Shown here in pieces: positions 16,461-23,643 of a stretch of 64,000 nucleotides of DNA (positions within the stretch are counted from its first letter, which is position 1; each line of letters opens with the position of its first letter). Below the pieces are notes generated by a model that was not told the origin of the DNA, did no database searches, and saw only the letters and a program-made list of their open reading frames with translations. The stretch comes from Paraflavitalea soli (GTDB lineage: Bacteria; Bacteroidota; Bacteroidia; Chitinophagales; Chitinophagaceae), in assembly GCF_003555545.1 (NCBI RefSeq), contig NZ_CP032157.1, forward strand, positions 6,204,546 to 6,268,545, written 5' to 3'. The translations under genes were made by a program, and so were the position numbers.

Positions 16461-16480
16461 CTCTCCCTGCAAAATATTAG

Positions 16481-16565
16481 TGGGGCGTGAGCGATTCGAA
16501 CGCTCTGTGTCTCACAGTGACAGATTTACAGTCTGCTGTAACTCCTCCATCGTTACCGACGCCCC
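16481..16565 (-). tRNA. tRNA-Tyr (GTA)
   Basis: A class II tRNA read on the minus strand. The acceptor stem GGGGCGT pairs with ACGCCCC, discriminator A. The anticodon loop contains CTGTAAA with anticodon GTA. The long variable arm is as expected for bacterial tRNA-Tyr, and the T arm carries GTTCGAATC. CCA is not encoded. Confidence 0.93.
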
Positions 16566-16661
16566 TTAGTATATACCATCATCTTTCCTGTGTATTGTGT
16601 GACTTCAGGGATGCGCGTTTGCACCTCCCCCCAATCCAAAAGATCCAGGTTCAGACATAGG

Positions 16662-16752
16662 CGGAGAACGAAGGGATCGAACCTTCACCACACCTTTCGG
16701 CATGGAACATCTTAGCAGGATGCCGCAACAAACCAATATCTGCCTGCTCTCC
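16662..16752 (-). tRNA. tRNA-Ser (GCT)
   Basis: A class II tRNA on the minus strand. The acceptor GGAGAGC pairs with GTTCTCC. The anticodon stem CATC/GATG encloses CTGCTAA, anticodon GCT (serine AGC/AGU). It has a long variable arm and T arm GAAGGTTCGATCCCTTC, discriminator G. CCA is not encoded. Confidence 0.92.
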
Positions 16753-16815
16753 ATTAATAAATCATACTTACTCCCTCACACACAACAATGCCTCACACAT
16801 CCACAAAGGCATAGG

Positions 16816-16901
16816 CGGAAGGTGCAGGACTCGAACCTGCAAACGCGTTACACGTACGGCAGTTTTCAAGACTGCTGCATTACCGATTATGCTAACCTTC
16901 C
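16816..16901 (-). tRNA. tRNA-Ser (TGA)
   Basis: A class II tRNA on the minus strand. The acceptor GGAAGGT pairs with ACCTTCC. The anticodon arm GCAGT-CTTGAAA-ACTGC has anticodon TGA (serine UCA/UCG). It has a long variable arm and T arm GCAGGTTCGAGTCCTGC, discriminator G. Confidence 0.93.
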
Positions 16902-16903
16902 AT

Positions 16904-16925
16904 CGGGAGCAAGACGGGAATCGAA
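16904..16925 (-). pseudogene. 3' fragment of a tRNA gene
   Basis: On the minus strand TTCGATTCCCGTCTTGCTCC resembles the T loop, T-stem 3' strand and acceptor 3' strand of a tRNA. The 5' three quarters are missing; instead a palindromic repeat and unrelated sequence follow. It lies 2 bases from the tRNA-Ser(TGA) 5' end. The original isotype cannot be told. Confidence 0.45.
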
Positions 16926-16935
16926 TCTCCTCTCC

Positions 16936-16974
16936 TGTCATTTCGAACGCAGCGAAGCGTAGTGAGAAATCTGC
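16936..16974. repeat. REP-like palindromic element
   Basis: TGTCATTTCGAACGC...GAGAAATCTGC: nested inverted repeats ATTTC/GAAAT and ACGC/GCGT around a short loop. It resembles the palindromic intergenic element (TCATTTCGA...GAGAAATC) common in Bacteroidota genomes. One clear copy in this window. Confidence 0.6.
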
Positions 16975-16988
16975 TATCGAAGCAAACG

Positions 16989-17023
16989 ACTCACCACTTA
17001 CCATTCACCACTTGCCGCTCACT
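16989..17023. repeat. 7-bp tandem repeat, consensus ACTYACC
   Basis: Five exactly phased heptamers: ACTCACC, ACTTACC, ATTCACC, ACTTGCC, GCTCACT. Related heptamers recur at 35338-35358. Confidence 0.7.
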
Positions 17024-17025
17024 CG

Positions 17026-17099
17026 TAGCCCCTGTGGGATTCGAACCCACACTGTGCTGTTTCTAAAACAGGCGCCTCCTTCCGTTGGGCTAAGGGGCT
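17026..17099 (-). tRNA. tRNA with UAG anticodon and short variable arm (isotype uncertain)
   Basis: A 74-nt cloverleaf on the minus strand. The acceptor AGCCCCT pairs with AGGGGCT, discriminator A. The T arm GTGGG-TTCGAAT-CCCAC is perfect. The anticodon arm CTGT-TTTAGAA-ACAG gives anticodon TAG. That would read the leucine codon CUA, but bacterial tRNA-Leu is class II and this gene has only a 5-nt variable region. The D stem has just three good pairs and the base of the anticodon stem is a C-C mismatch. It may be an unusual tRNA, a misread isotype or a decaying gene. Confidence 0.65.
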
Positions 17100-17184: not shown

Positions 17185-17217
17185 CAAAAAACCCTTCAAG
17201 TGCTGGACCTGAAGGGC
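17185..17217 (-). terminator. intrinsic terminator of the leader/small RNA
   Basis: On the minus strand, GCCCTTCA (17217-17210) pairs with TGAAGGG (17198-17192), followed by TTTTTTGTTTTT. It lies about 85 bases before the UAG tRNA. Confidence 0.75.
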
Positions 17218-17343
17218 TTTTCATGCATTTATAGAGTGTATCTTATTGGCTAAGTCTTTGATACGCATACATGTAACTGCCCTTCAGCTTGCTACTATAG
17301 CAACTGAGTGATAAGGACAGTAGATATGTATTGTTGCGAATCA
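17185..17343 (-). ncRNA. candidate attenuator leader or structured small RNA upstream of the tRNA cluster
   Basis: Bounded by a strong promoter and an intrinsic terminator, about 155 nt, non-coding. Reading 5' to 3': ACTGTCCTT (17323-17315) pairs with AAGGGCAGT (17284-17276), enclosing a hairpin CAGTTGCTA-TAG-TAGCAAGCTG. The segment CTGAAGGGC (17287-17279) is also a perfect 9-bp complement of GCCCTTCAG (17217-17209), the 5' arm of the terminator. So first hairpin plus terminator, or antiterminator pairing, exclude each other, as in attenuators. Outer arms ATACAT/ATGTAT extend the first hairpin into a long bulged stem, which also recalls 6S-type RNAs. Downstream on the same strand are the tRNAs. 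The family is unknown to me. Confidence 0.55.
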
Positions 17344-17348
17344 TGATA

Positions 17349-17378
17349 CAAAAGTAATAAAACAAATCAATTAACAAA
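17349..17378 (-). promoter_or_regulatory. strong Bacteroidota promoter reading toward the tRNA cluster
   Basis: On the minus strand: TTTG (17378-17375), 18 bases, TACTTTTG (17356-17349). Both -33 and -7 elements match consensus with near-ideal spacing. The expected start is near 17343. The rest of the 533-bp gap (17100-17632) holds a TAGCAT/ATGCTA dyad at 17109-17155 and no coding frame; 17380-17632 shows nothing else recognisable. Confidence 0.75.
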
Positions 17379-19045: not shown

Positions 19046-20218
19046 TCATTCTGTACCGGTAGAGTTCGCCTCCGGCATCTTTGCAAGGCATTCCTGCATA
19101 TAGTGCTGATCCAGCTTCTCTTGCTCAATCCTGCCATTATTAGCCGATAATAGAGAGAAGGCTCTCTTTTCACTGCCTGTTAATACCGATAGATCATGCT
19201 CCCGGTATCGGTGCGGTTGAGTGTCCATTTCCAATTGGTGATGCATGACTACTGCTTCATCCATCAGTACACTAATAACATGCGGGTAATACAATCGTAC
19301 GTCCCGCAGCATGGTAAAACCCTTTTCGTCCAGGTCACCCCAGTAATACAGTTGTGTATTCCGAAACAACGGAATATCCTTTAACAAGTGCAGTGCCCCT
19401 CCGGCACTTACCAGCGCCATAGAACCTGCCATCTCTGGCAATAAATACAAATTCGTCTCATTCTCCACCAATATGATCTGCTTCACCGGCCAGGCCACTT
19501 GTTTTAAATAATCCACACTCACGCCAAAAACTTCCATACCTGCGCTGAATTGTTCGGCCATTGCCAGATCCAGCCACCGAAGCGCAAACAGGTGCGGCTT
19601 CTTTCGCAGGCCCAGCGCTTCTTCCAAAGTATGCCCTTCATTCCCAAACCTTGCTGGCTGCAAAAACTGTAGCAGCGAAAAAATAACAGCTTTGTATCGT
19701 TGGATAAATTTGGTATGTACAGGCACCTGTAATGTGCGGAGGTAAAGATTCCTTACATCATGTGTCAATAAATAATCCACTACCCCACAAATGCCTTTCC
19801 AGGCAGGCTGGTATTGCAACAGCGTATCCGGGGGTTGTTGCAACAGCCAATCTTTCAGGGTCGGTTGCCAGGCGAGTAATTGGCCAAGCCCATCTTTAAA
19901 TTCCGCAGCTTCGATCTCCTTATTAAGAAAGCGTAAGTAATCTTCTTCTGTGTTGAACCGGACCACCTCCACCTCATCTTGTTCACCATGCTGGCGGGTT
20001 ACCACTTTTCGATAGCCAAGACTGTATCCAAAGCCTGTTCTGTCCTTGGAATGGCTAATTAAAGCCTCCAGCGCCTTGTGGCGCAGCCCAAAATCGGCCG
20101 GAGCCTTTTTATCTGCACGAATATGTAGCGGGAAAAAAGAACTGCCCTGTATTAAACTACGCAGGTAGTCACCATACTTGCGCAATGCCTTGCCGCCTAT
20201 TTCCTGCGGCGTGATCAC
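19046..20218 (-). CDS. jetD: Wadjet system nuclease subunit JetD
   Basis: A 390-aa protein, last gene of the jetABCD operon. The N-terminal half corresponds to the DUF3322-type region and the C-terminal half to DUF2220, a TOPRIM/topoisomerase VI-like nuclease. Visible active-site motifs are ILVENETNLY (Glu) and YYWGDLDEKGF (Asp-x-Asp), then the basic LRDVRLYYP segment. In Wadjet, JetD cuts circular plasmid DNA after loop extrusion by JetABC. It starts with GTG, overlapping the jetC stop by 4 bp (GTGA), so it is translationally coupled. Confidence 0.92.
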   Translation of the reverse strand: MITPQEIGGKALRKYGDYLRSLIQGSSFFPLHIRADKKAPADFGLRHKALEALISHSKDRTGFGYSLGYRKVVTRQHGEQDEVEVVRFNTEEDYLRFLNKEIEAAEFKDGLGQLLAWQPTLKDWLLQQPPDTLLQYQPAWKGICGVVDYLLTHDVRNLYLRTLQVPVHTKFIQRYKAVIFSLLQFLQPARFGNEGHTLEEALGLRKKPHLFALRWLDLAMAEQFSAGMEVFGVSVDYLKQVAWPVKQIILVENETNLYLLPEMAGSMALVSAGGALHLLKDIPLFRNTQLYYWGDLDEKGFTMLRDVRLYYPHVISVLMDEAVVMHHQLEMDTQPHRYREHDLSVLTGSEKRAFSLLSANNGRIEQEKLDQHYMQECLAKMPEANSTGTE

Positions 20219-23200
20219 GCCTCCACCTGTTTCTTACCCATATACTTTGCCCTGTTTTCCTGAAACTGCATAATGCTCATATCATACACCACACTGTCCC
20301 GGTGATTCCGGCGATATACAAAGTGCACTTTCGAAATATAAGGCTCAACGATCTTTACCTCATCGGCTTTGGCAGGTGATACCACCATCAGTTGCAGGTG
20401 CAGCTGCCGGCAAAGGTCCATCAGGTAACGCGCTTTCTCTTCATCCTGCCGGCTGAACGCCTCATCCACACAAATGAACCGGAAAGAACGCGTTTCATAG
20501 CCATCACTGTGAATGCCAAACTGGTGCGCGATCGCCGATCCCAGGATCGTGTACGTAAGCTGCGCCTGCTCACCCCCACTTAATTTTTCTGTACCCGTAT
20601 AACTTCTGTGCACCGTTACCTTGTCTGCTGCTTTGATCTCCTTGGCCGTAAACTTCAGCCAGTTTCGTACATCCAATACCTCCCGGCGCCAGGTCTCCTG
20701 TTTCGTCAGGTCATCCAGCAAAGTTTTGATCTTCACAAAACTGTTCTCGAGGATACTGTCATCCTGCGTACGCTGGTATTCAGCCAGGTTGGGCTTCCAG
20801 TTGTTAAGCTGGTATTTGAAATCCTTGATCTGCTGGTTCAGGTCTTCCTTGCAGTCAAGTTGTATAAACGTTTGTGGGTTCTGACGGTAAGTAATGGCTT
20901 TCAAAGCCTGGTTCAGCTTACCAATATTATCCTTGATCTTGGCCGCCTCAGCATCCAGGTTTTCCTTGAAACTGCTCATCCGGTTGATCATCTCCTCATT
21001 GAGGTACTTCTTAAACCGCTGCTGTTGTTCTTTCAGCTCCTCCTGTTGCAACTTGTGCAGCAGTACAATATACTCTGCCACAAATTCTGCGCTGTCGCTC
21101 AGCGTAAAAGTGCTGTTCTTCCAGTCCGGGAATTGCTGATGCAAAGCAGCCTGATCCGGGTTCTTGAACTTCCGCATCGCCTGTTCCAGCTGACGTACAG
21201 TATTGTTTACATCACCACTATACACATCTACCTTCTTGCGAATGCCCGTGCGGACCTGGTTTTGTACCTTTTCCAGCACATCCAGGTCAATCGTATAGTC
21301 TATTTCTTCCTTTACATAACTTTCGATCAATGGCAGGTACTGTTGCACATCGGAGGCTCCATACCGCCGTTGGATATCTTCCGAGCGCTGGGCCGAAAGA
21401 TTCCAGGCCTCCACTTCCTTCTTCATCCCACCCATCCTTTCTGTCAGTGCTTCATTTTCCTGCTTCAGTTGCCGCAACTCTTCCCGAAGCACTTGCTGTT
21501 GTTTGCGCAAGGCATCAAGCGCCTTATTGCCCTTTTGCAGGTCCTGCAACTGCTTGGTCACTTGCTGTATCGTATTGCTGGTCGTCTTCCAATCGATCGC
21601 CTCAAAATCCTTCACCGCCAATACCTGGCCAATTACCTGTTGCTTTTGTTCCAGCTCCCTGATCGTTCCTTCCAGCTTCTTTACCTGCCGCTTGCTTTCA
21701 TCAATTTGCTTTTCTGTCTCCGCAAGATCCTTCACCAGCGATTTGATCTTGGCTGTATTATCCCAGCCCAATACATACTGCTGAGGACGTTTAACATCCG
21801 GGCTGTCATTCTTTTCATGCCGGTGCTTATTCTTCGTAAGCCCCTGCACCGTAATCGCCCGGTCGTATTGTTGTAATTGCTTTACATTCTGTACCGCAGC
21901 ATAATTATAAGACTGGAGCAATTGCTCATACACCCAGTTGCCATAGATCGAATCTTCTTTGATCTCCAGCTTATGCAAAATACTTTCCTTATCGGCCTTC
22001 ATCATCCGCCCCAGCCCCTCATCCTTATGATAGTGATGATATACAATACGCCCACGCAGGTTATTTTCATTGATAAAGCTGGTGGCCTGCTGGTAATACT
22101 TCGTAGGGATGATCATACGGAGCGCAAAACCACGCAGCAGGTTTTCCAGGGCAGGCTCCCATTTGCTTTCCTCCGGCAATACCTGGATCAGCTCCCCGAT
22201 AAAAGGGATCTCATCCGCCGAAGCGCCGCAATGCTCCAATACCTCAGCCCGTATCTGCGCTACCCGGCCCGTAATATTGTTCTTCTGCTGGCGCAACACC
22301 TCGATCTCCTTTTCAAGCTGATCATATTCCTGTTGCTGTACCAGCAATACATTCTCCATCTTAAACAGGTTGCGCCGGGCAATCGCCAGCTCGTTCTCCA
22401 GCACGCCCTGCTGTTGAACAGCCTTCTCCTGGTAGCGTTCCAGCTCCAGCTTGGAAGGATTTACACCATAACCGGCCGTCCGCAACCATTCATTCAGCTT
22501 ATCGCTTTGGTCCTGTTGCTGCCCTTTTTTTACTTCCAGTTGGCGAAGCTGGTTTTCCAGTTCCGCTATCTGCCGGCCAATATCACTGTTGCGGATATCA
22601 CTGTCTATCTTCCGTTCCCGTTCATCCGTATTGGCAATATGTTGCTCCAGTTCCTGCTTTTTCTTTTTGGCTGTGGCCAGCTGCCCGTTGGCTTCTTCGA
22701 TCACATCCGTCAGCAATTTGCTTTCCAATGTGGCGAAATAATAGGGTTGTATCTGTTGAAGGCTCTCGTAATAGTCAGCTTGCTTCCTCAACTCCTGCTC
22801 TTTCAGGTGCAACTCCTGCACCGGTTGCAGCAGCTCTATCTGCTTCACCGTTTTTTCGATAGCTGTATGCGTATCACTCAGCGTCTGAAATTGTTCCTTC
22901 AGGTTGATGAACTCCTGCTCCATATCATTCTCTTCCAGCATCTGGTTGCGGATGAAATCATCCAGGCTGCCCAATATCTTCAGACTGATTGTTTGGTTAA
23001 ACAACATCTGCGCCTTCTCACTACGCATCCCGAAATAATGCCGCACCTTCTGACTGTATTCCTTTGGCCCGTCAAAAAACTCGATCAGGTCCTTGCTGCC
23101 ACGTTTGGGAAACCGCTGCCGCAATACCTTCTTCCAGTTACCCTGCGCATCGAAATGCTTGAAATCTTCCTGTATATTCAATTCCGCATGTGCAATGATA

Positions 23201-23643
23201 AAGCTCTTCTTTAATTCAGTACCACTGAACCACCGGCACTGCACCAGCGTTACAAAACGATCTTCATTCTTGAAAGTGCCCAGTACAATCGAATACGTCT
23301 TCGTTTTATCATTCCGTAGCCGCTGCGCCGTTTGTATACCTGTATCACTGTCCGTTTCTTCTCCATATTCCCCCAGCACATAGCTTTCCTCGCTCCGTTC
23401 ATTTTTCGTCTTGCCCTCCGCACTCTGGTTAAAAGAGCGCATCCGGCGTTCTGCCGCCAATAGCGTCAGCATCGCATGCACCAGCGTCGTCTTACCACTG
23501 CCATTGGCCCCTGTGAGCAGACTGTTCTCACTTTCCGGACTGATCGTATAAATGGAGCCATCAAAAGTGCCCCAGTTGTACAACTGCATCTTATGCATCC
23601 GGAACCCCGCCTTACTGCTATCCGTACTAAACAGACTTAACAT
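20215..23643 (-). CDS. jetC: Wadjet system SMC/MukB-like ATPase JetC
   Basis: A 1142-aa SMC-like protein and motor of the Wadjet complex. The head domain is split: Walker A GANGSGKT at residues 45-52; signature LSGGEQAQ at 1021-1028; Walker B ICVDEAF around 1057-1063. Between them is a long coiled-coil arm (about 270-1000, Gln/Glu/Leu heptads) interrupted near residues 480-640 by a globular hinge-like domain. Dimers extrude DNA loops, letting the complex sense small circular DNA. Its start lies 17 bp inside jetB. All ATPase motifs are intact. Confidence 0.95.
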   Translation of the reverse strand: MLSLFSTDSSKAGFRMHKMQLYNWGTFDGSIYTISPESENSLLTGANGSGKTTLVHAMLTLLAAERRMRSFNQSAEGKTKNERSEESYVLGEYGEETDSDTGIQTAQRLRNDKTKTYSIVLGTFKNEDRFVTLVQCRWFSGTELKKSFIIAHAELNIQEDFKHFDAQGNWKKVLRQRFPKRGSKDLIEFFDGPKEYSQKVRHYFGMRSEKAQMLFNQTISLKILGSLDDFIRNQMLEENDMEQEFINLKEQFQTLSDTHTAIEKTVKQIELLQPVQELHLKEQELRKQADYYESLQQIQPYYFATLESKLLTDVIEEANGQLATAKKKKQELEQHIANTDERERKIDSDIRNSDIGRQIAELENQLRQLEVKKGQQQDQSDKLNEWLRTAGYGVNPSKLELERYQEKAVQQQGVLENELAIARRNLFKMENVLLVQQQEYDQLEKEIEVLRQQKNNITGRVAQIRAEVLEHCGASADEIPFIGELIQVLPEESKWEPALENLLRGFALRMIIPTKYYQQATSFINENNLRGRIVYHHYHKDEGLGRMMKADKESILHKLEIKEDSIYGNWVYEQLLQSYNYAAVQNVKQLQQYDRAITVQGLTKNKHRHEKNDSPDVKRPQQYVLGWDNTAKIKSLVKDLAETEKQIDESKRQVKKLEGTIRELEQKQQVIGQVLAVKDFEAIDWKTTSNTIQQVTKQLQDLQKGNKALDALRKQQQVLREELRQLKQENEALTERMGGMKKEVEAWNLSAQRSEDIQRRYGASDVQQYLPLIESYVKEEIDYTIDLDVLEKVQNQVRTGIRKKVDVYSGDVNNTVRQLEQAMRKFKNPDQAALHQQFPDWKNSTFTLSDSAEFVAEYIVLLHKLQQEELKEQQQRFKKYLNEEMINRMSSFKENLDAEAAKIKDNIGKLNQALKAITYRQNPQTFIQLDCKEDLNQQIKDFKYQLNNWKPNLAEYQRTQDDSILENSFVKIKTLLDDLTKQETWRREVLDVRNWLKFTAKEIKAADKVTVHRSYTGTEKLSGGEQAQLTYTILGSAIAHQFGIHSDGYETRSFRFICVDEAFSRQDEEKARYLMDLCRQLHLQLMVVSPAKADEVKIVEPYISKVHFVYRRNHRDSVVYDMSIMQFQENRAKYMGKKQVEA

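Follow-up and report, generated by a model that had tools for sequence, protein, structure and literature searches.

A putative leader-peptide attenuator in front of a supernumerary tRNA array in the Chitinophagaceae

How might a bacterium govern tRNA genes that duplicate, in divergent form, those it already carries elsewhere? The question is raised by a locus of Paraflavitalea soli, located within a stretch of 64,000 nucleotides (hereafter the window; G000:C1:6204546-6268545) of an 8.44 Mb genome, in which a short leader and an intrinsic terminator precede a cluster of tRNA genes on the minus strand. Leader-peptide attenuation is a textbook mechanism, represented by the amino-acid operons (trp, his, leu, thr and ilv) and by pheST, and the targets of attenuation known to us are genes that make or load amino acids. 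Here it is argued, on the basis of comparative sequence analysis and with an estimated probability of about 0.88, that the element in the window attenuates the transcription of a supernumerary tRNA array by means of a leader peptide and the ribosome translating it.

The promoter proposed in the initial annotation was found in full on the minus strand (17349-17378), with TTTG at 17378-17375, a spacer of 18 nt and TACTTTTG at 17356-17349; its sequence is that of a promoter of the Bacteroidota type. The same annotation described the leader as non-coding, which proved to be wrong: an ATG at 17344 opens a 33-codon ORF ending at 17243 (minus strand, 17243-17344; MIRNNTYLLSLSLSCYSSKLKGSYMYAYQRLSQ*) that is found, and remains open, in ten of ten leaders from as many genomes. 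In all ten, a TAnnTTTG box ends 4 nt upstream of the ATG, and the ORF is probably leaderless or nearly so. The intrinsic terminator, with its T tract, is indeed located at 17185-17221 of the minus strand, a terminator lies no further than 110 nt from the leader stop in each of the ten leaders, and the downstream genes were confirmed as tRNA-Leu (TAG), Ser (TGA), Ser (GCT) and Tyr. Over 22 codons in 10 sequences, pN/pS equals 0.41 in the ORF frame vs 0.81 and 0.84 in the other frames, which contain stops within these codons in 10/10 and 8/10 sequences; a short ORF apparently conserved for coding thus lies upstream of the terminator, as would be expected of an attenuator. Codons 7-18 (17291-17326, minus strand) read Tyr-Leu-Leu-Ser-Leu-Ser-Leu-Ser-Cys-Tyr-Ser-Ser and form the longest L/S/C/Y run, 12 codons, in the six frames of the window; the run comprises 11-15 codons in 8 of the 9 homologues and 6 in G303. 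In total, 19 of the 32 residues of the window leader are L/S/C/Y (P 4.4e-6), and 14 of 32 are W/F/Q/Y/S (P 3.5e-3), the latter enrichment arising because S and Y are common to both sets.

The leader RNA folds at -53.7 kcal/mol, whereas its shuffled versions average -32.1 (z -5.9; 0/200 shuffles as good). The pairing elements occupy the minus-strand places first assigned to them: region 1 (ACTGTCCTT, 17313-17321) would pair with region 2 unless covered by a ribosome; region 2 (CTGAAGGGC, 17279-17287), the 5' strand of the antiterminator, coincides with codons 20-22; region 3 (GCCCTTCAG, 17209-17217) is common to the antiterminator and the 5' arm of the terminator; and region 4 (CTTGAAGGG, 17192-17200) completes the 3:4 terminator hairpin. 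Stems 1:2, 2:3 and 3:4 are mutually exclusive, with region 2 beside the control codons. Across the 10 sequences, 94.4% of the cells of the 2:3 helix (9 bp) are paired, vs 12-64% when the helix is slid by 1-3 columns, and the 1:2 helix proper is 90% paired with no two-sided change. Covariance analysis, proposed earlier as a check, found the pairing of CTGAAGGGC with GCCCTTCAG kept in the 10 sequences and no covariation in this 2:3 helix. Two-sided changes were seen only in the inner stems of the 1:2 hairpin (100% paired, 3 such changes), and covariation there was dismissed, as 47 of 500 shuffles reach the same. In G303, the antiterminator is interrupted by a mismatch, and its longest remaining run of 5 bp is equalled in 96 of 100 shuffles. 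The conserved stems and the terminator placed before the tRNAs support the original suggestion of an attenuator with three mutually exclusive stems over the tRNA cluster.

The effect of ribosome position was modelled by folding the transcript, ending at region 3, with a masked footprint that was assumed to reach, from the first base of the P-site codon, 14 nt in the upstream and 15 nt in the downstream direction. In ten of ten leaders, the predicted probability of the 2:3 helix lies between 0.76 and 1.00 for an A site anywhere in codons 7-15 and is 0.00 for codons 19-25; a ribosome stalled on the matching codons would therefore favour the antiterminator. Many leaders allow 2:3 again near the stop codon (1.00 in G002, G168, G379 and G331), and without a ribosome the prediction is 0.00 in G226 and G303, 0.06 in the window and 1.00 in G002 and G331, so that termination would have to depend on timing.

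The array behind the window leader has the order Leu-(Cys remnant)-Ser-Ser-Tyr, all on the minus strand: tRNA-Leu(TAG) at 17025-17099 (75 nt, with a short variable arm), the 3' remnant of a tRNA-Cys at 16907-16927, tRNA-Ser(TGA) at 16814-16901 (62.3 bits in Rfam), tRNA-Ser(GCT) at 16660-16752 and tRNA-Tyr(GTA) at 16480-16565, the last two, of the four array tRNAs, falling below the Rfam gathering score. The Cys remnant was matched by eye; the gene is whole in relatives, namely in the arrays of G002 and G003. In the window (16907-17024) it has been cut to its 3' end, and its 5' part is replaced by a stretch that presumably resembles a dispersed repeat. Housekeeping Leu, Cys, Ser, Ser and Tyr tRNA genes are also found elsewhere in this genome, and the array genes of the ten genomes are only 0.57-0.73 identical to their best-scoring matches among its housekeeping tRNAs; the array thus consists of divergent second copies of tRNAs present elsewhere. 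The array Leu tRNAs measure 74-76 nt and lack the long variable arm, compared with 83-87 nt for housekeeping Leu tRNAs (for Leu(TAG), 75 nt in the window array vs 83 nt), they match best to tRNAs that carry other amino acids, and the three best-scoring matches of the window gene include no housekeeping tRNA-Leu. The array Leu(TAA) tRNAs of the g87 genomes likewise lack the long variable arm. Elsewhere in the window, 19046-23643 encodes a JetD-type protein (JetD_C, DUF3322) together with an SMC-like ATPase, a combination reminiscent of the Wadjet loci for plasmid defence.

Searches with the leader protein against 294 genomes of the family and with a profile against 394 yielded ten leaders, including that of the window, in two genera (3/5 genomes of g1 and 7/10 of g87), and a tRNA array, in some form, accompanies the leader in ten of ten genomes. 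When all 15 genomes were searched with the leader and array DNA of G356, no array was found in the five sister genomes that lack the leader: G004 gave no matches, and G001, G269, G090 and G409 (the last 61% complete) gave nothing beyond short matches (32-56 nt; E 7.6e-9 or weaker). Leader and array, present or absent together in the 15 genomes, therefore appear to have been gained or lost jointly. In 7 of the 10 genomes, the seven of g87, the GC core of the terminator (3' arm) lies 8-11 nt from the first tRNA, too close for a promoter to fit in between; in the window (86-91 nt) and in G003 the two are 91 nt apart and in G002 63 nt, which does leave room for a second promoter. Inspection of rmuC neighbours (12 of 80 loci tRNA-scanned) revealed the cluster only in L033 and L035, apparently the same records as G003 and G002. 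Beyond the two genera, the search for an L/S/C/Y leader gave weak matches in the family and four in the order, and no such array was present at the tRNA-scanned loci among them (L184-L207, L217-L225, L227 and L274-L277; L226, L228-L236 and matches without a locus were left out), L196 containing one stray tRNA-Asn. A phage origin was considered and rejected, the leader alignment and two array-tRNA patterns having no match in viral_contigs.

These data bear on the possibility, also contained in the initial annotation, that the element is an independent structured small RNA, 6S-like or other, which carries its own terminator and is unrelated to the tRNAs. The very stable fold, the presence of its own promoter and terminator and the 86-91 nt separating the terminator from the tRNA in the window would all suit such an RNA, which is nevertheless very unlikely given that the ORF is conserved with synonymous bias, that the tRNA starts at the T tract in 7/10 genomes and that leader and array are present or absent jointly in 15 genomes. 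The 6S-type alternative fails in Rfam as well: in the window, nothing but tRNA reaches the gathering score, and the search, 6S-Flavo included, returned no 6S match at the gathering score or at E up to 10. A riboswitch or other known RNA was rejected on similar grounds, as Rfam reports tRNA only, also at the 10 array loci scanned; in the search for a T-box or known riboswitch, the best matches were SpF01 with 25.8 bits (cut-off 55) and trpB with 22.8 bits (cut-off 59), both below threshold.

What the attenuator reading of the initial annotation lacked was a sensor, and the codons of the leader peptide, which match the array tRNAs, appear to provide it: the sensor would be the translating ribosome and not a ligand-binding RNA. 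In ten of ten leaders, each of the tRNAs Leu(UAG), Ser(UGA), Ser(GCU), Cys and Tyr is called for by one or more of codons 2-18. The regulatory codons thus seem to match the product, with an exact correspondence of codon classes and array, judged by detected tRNAs, in just 4 of the 10 arrays (G003, G226, G331 and G356). The array lacks tRNA-Cys in the window, Leu in G002, Cys and Ser(TGA) in G168, and Tyr in G379, and in G303 Leu is degenerate and Tyr is absent; TTA/TTG codons occur in the absence of a Leu(TAA) tRNA in the window, G168, G303 and G400.

From the conserved ORF, the codons fitting the array, the exclusive stems, the terminator before the tRNAs and the fact that leader and array co-occur, we infer translation of the leader, stalling, read-through and a benefit to the cell, and the following course may be proposed. 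RNA polymerase would start at about 17344, and a ribosome would translate the 33-codon leader. With charged Leu, Ser, Cys and Tyr tRNAs plentiful, the ribosome would move past codons 7-18 and cover region 2 while regions 3 and 4 are being made, so that the terminator would form and transcription would stop at about 17185. If any of those tRNAs were scarce, the ribosome would stall on codons 7-16, where it covers region 1 but not region 2, so that the latter could pair with region 3; the terminator would then fail and the spare Leu, Ser, (Cys) and Tyr tRNAs would be transcribed.

The same logic appears to recur with other amino acids. A search of the 394 family genomes with array tRNA DNA led to G202, of genus g16, whose array reads Trp-Phe-Gln-Tyr-Ser(GCT) with Phe-Gln-Tyr-Ser repeated. 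Upstream lie a TACTTTTG box, a leader, MKQQQTYFSPFSWYQSGIRWAIV (opening with MKQQQTYFSPFSWYQSG), and a terminator adjoining tRNA-Trp, its stem interrupted and its hairpin visible in the fold. In this leader, 13 of 22 residues are W/F/Q/Y/S (P 1.2e-4) and 5 of 22 are L/S/C/Y (P 0.54). The related genome G132 has a leader with no Phe codon, MKQQQSYYSSNSWSQYSDVRRAIV, and an array of Trp, Gln and Tyr, with a Ser(GCT)-like gene between Trp and Gln that was recognised by eye and missed by ARAGORN and Rfam; a Phe tRNA was not detected in it. Stall folding predicts an equal on/off pattern in G202 and G132, which represent one genome pair.

In other genomes, larger arrays are preceded by a different leader of about 30 residues, termed leader A. 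A profile of five sequences (E up to 0.001) matched 66 of 394 family genomes in 25 of 101 genera; 65 of the 70 matches were extracted (those of G062, G166, G389, G393 and G396 were left out). At least one same-strand tRNA lies downstream within the fetched stretch in 50 of the 65 loci (median 6). In the other 15, no tRNA was detected behind the leader by ARAGORN, and an Rfam rescan produced weak matches only, two in L389 and one in L348; at L346 and L352 the contig ends within 1.1 kb downstream. Leaving aside the initial residue, the first 25 contain 17.3 distinct amino acids on average (at least 17 in 51/65 leaders, 13-15 in 6), compared with 13.4 (sd 1.45; 1.35% reach 17) in random peptides of the same background and 13.0 in windows of real proteins from the window, and all 20 amino acids occur in MLRIQLHIETVNWFSPKGDYTVCGACYAAE, the consensus of the 49 leaders that are exactly 30 residues long. 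Because the sequences are related, the columns of the alignment of these 49 were shuffled: the shuffles average 16.14 (sd 0.12), and none of the 5000 attains the observed 17.33. When each of the 20 genera is represented by one leader, 0/5000 shuffles reach the observed value, and over 20 random draws z averages 5.0 with a minimum of 3.8. Single peptides therefore span more of the alphabet than would be expected from their own profile. The presence of particular amino acids is weakly related to array content, the P = 0.010 for Trp being one of 16 tests and uncorrected for kinship.

A terminator is found within 110 nt of the stop in 65/65 extracted leader A ORFs, and the duplex between the ORF and the terminator 5' arm averages 7.58 bp vs 5.26 after codon shuffling, with 11 of the 65 duplexes equalled by a quarter or more of their own shuffles. 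The commonest pair, TTGCGGGGC with GCCCCGCAA, occurs in 20/65; in the leader A of G004b both strands have changed together (TTGCAGGGC/GCCCTGCAA), and G380 is similar. Stall folding of 59 of the 65 leaders (six had no recognised region 2) predicts a mean antiterminator probability of 0.91-0.97 as long as the A site is within codons 2-19, which drops to 0.51 at codon 20, to 0.06 at codon 21 and to 0.00 further on; the antiterminator is predicted to form in the ribosome-free transcript as well.

Given such predictions, it might be supposed that the nascent peptide of the leader serves to sense an antibiotic or an arrest of translation in general, independently of any codon-specific tRNA shortage. 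The predicted formation of 2:3 with no ribosome or an early stall, in several of the ten leaders and in leader A on average, fits this explanation, as does the reported induction of the Anabaena tRNA array by translation-targeting antibiotics (PMC10272220). A nascent-peptide sensor would, however, be expected to keep its sequence; here composition is kept and order varies, the run ending in SSCYY in G400 vs SCYSN in most leaders with the residues staying in the L/S/C/Y set, and Lys and Ile exchanging between positions 4 and 17 of leader A. As the codons, moreover, fit more than one tRNA set, this explanation is regarded as improbable, if the least so of the three alternatives weighed.

It is more doubtful still, and the least probable of all, that the short ORFs have functional products, such as a toxin or a signal peptide, and that the terminator is merely their own. 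The conservation of the ORF would be compatible with such a function, and none of the five leader types tested gave a convincing Pfam match; on the other side, composition follows the array, leader A holds more distinct amino acids than its column profile predicts, and a strand within the ORF pairs with the terminator arm.

Leader A is followed in 58 of 65 loci by leader B, a second ORF and terminator in series. All 20 amino acids, Met1 included, are present in 26 of the 58 leaders B, and about 1-2% of random peptides of 50-54 residues hold all 20 without Met1; leader B was defined as the longest ATG ORF near the terminator, which gave the wrong frame in G332 and may be imprecise in others. 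Between leader B and the array, a further conserved ORF of 45-46 codons was observed (leader C, MKLLxxVLxIRF...HPAEFxLR), located at 1090-1227 of L294 in minus-strand orientation, with counterparts in L295, L297, L299 and L300; a hairpin follows the ORF in several loci, and one tested copy had no Pfam match. Leader C was rejected as a sensor, the two tested having 15 distinct amino acids against a chance mean of 16.4-16.5. In two large g87 arrays (L237 and L238), a hairpin GTAGCGG...CCGCTAC stands directly before the first tRNA, a tRNA-Pro.

Among 35 tRNA loci examined as a control, the layout of ORF, terminator and tRNA was recovered at three: the window array (duplex 9), L145 (duplex 6), which is leader B of a second leader A locus, and L149 (duplex 6), where it is probably due to chance; at the other housekeeping tRNA loci of the window genome it is absent. 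The L145 locus (G000:C1:222250-222729, also L337) comprises leaders A and B with a tRNA-Lys(TTT) 316 nt past the stop of leader A. Leaders A, B and C also precede another tRNA array of this genome, which is larger than that of the window and degenerate in part (G000:C1:6575700-6578400, L300). This big array (L170/L300) fails the layout test because a gene that we take to be DinB-like sits between the leaders and the tRNAs, after leader C.

The putative attenuator in the window resembles those of trp, his, leu, thr, ilv and pheST in its short codon-rich leader ORF, in its regions 1-4 and in the terminator before the structural genes, and differs from them in that it would target tRNA genes and respond to several amino acids at once; leader A departs further from the classic systems in covering nearly all twenty and in usually being followed by a second leader in series. 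T-box riboswitches sense tRNA charging and control a terminator. The element proposed here would share both properties with them, whereas its sensing would be performed by a translating ribosome and it has no T-box match in Rfam. In E. coli, an upstream ORF of topAI is reported to serve as a sensor of ribosome-targeting antibiotics (PMC12121999). A short upstream ORF reporting ribosome stalling is what is proposed for the window leader too, with the difference that the E. coli ORF controls a toxin-antitoxin gene pair and that, in the part of the abstract consulted, a codon match to downstream tRNAs is not mentioned (PMC12121999). Among the matches listed in open-access PMC, no report of leader-peptide control of tRNA genes or of alphabet-spanning leaders was found, and the nearest described system among them is the trn operon of Anabaena PCC 7120, a long tRNA array under the TrcR repressor that is silent until translation is impaired (PMC10272220). 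Both are supernumerary tRNA arrays, of which that of Anabaena is inducible; the regulator in Anabaena is a DNA-binding repressor, TrcR, in contrast to the cis-acting leader peptide and terminator suggested here, and the main text contains no words beginning with attenuat, leader or terminator (PMC10272220).

While the class of mechanism is old, we know of no precedent for its target, for an input of several amino acids or for leaders that span the alphabet. The logic seems to extend from the L/S/C/Y leader to a Trp/Phe/Gln/Tyr/Ser leader before an array of those tRNAs and to near-complete alphabets before larger arrays. Taken jointly, these cases suggest a picture that we put forward tentatively, at somewhat less than even odds: the Chitinophagaceae would hold a reserve of divergent tRNAs under near-pangram leaders, with two attenuators in series, that the loss of any tRNA switches on, the leaders of the smaller arrays having been narrowed to the tRNAs behind them. 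The benefit would lie in resistance to tRNA-cutting toxins or anticodon nucleases rather than to amino-acid starvation, because new tRNA synthesis is the direct remedy for such damage. As the output consists of the tRNAs themselves, the loop would sense and repair the tRNA supply directly. Leader A may be, to our knowledge, the first instance of selection for a peptide that holds the amino-acid alphabet and not a particular sequence. The proposal offers a testable answer to the question of how silent tRNA arrays are switched on, and the leaders may constitute a ready-made sensor of tRNA depletion.
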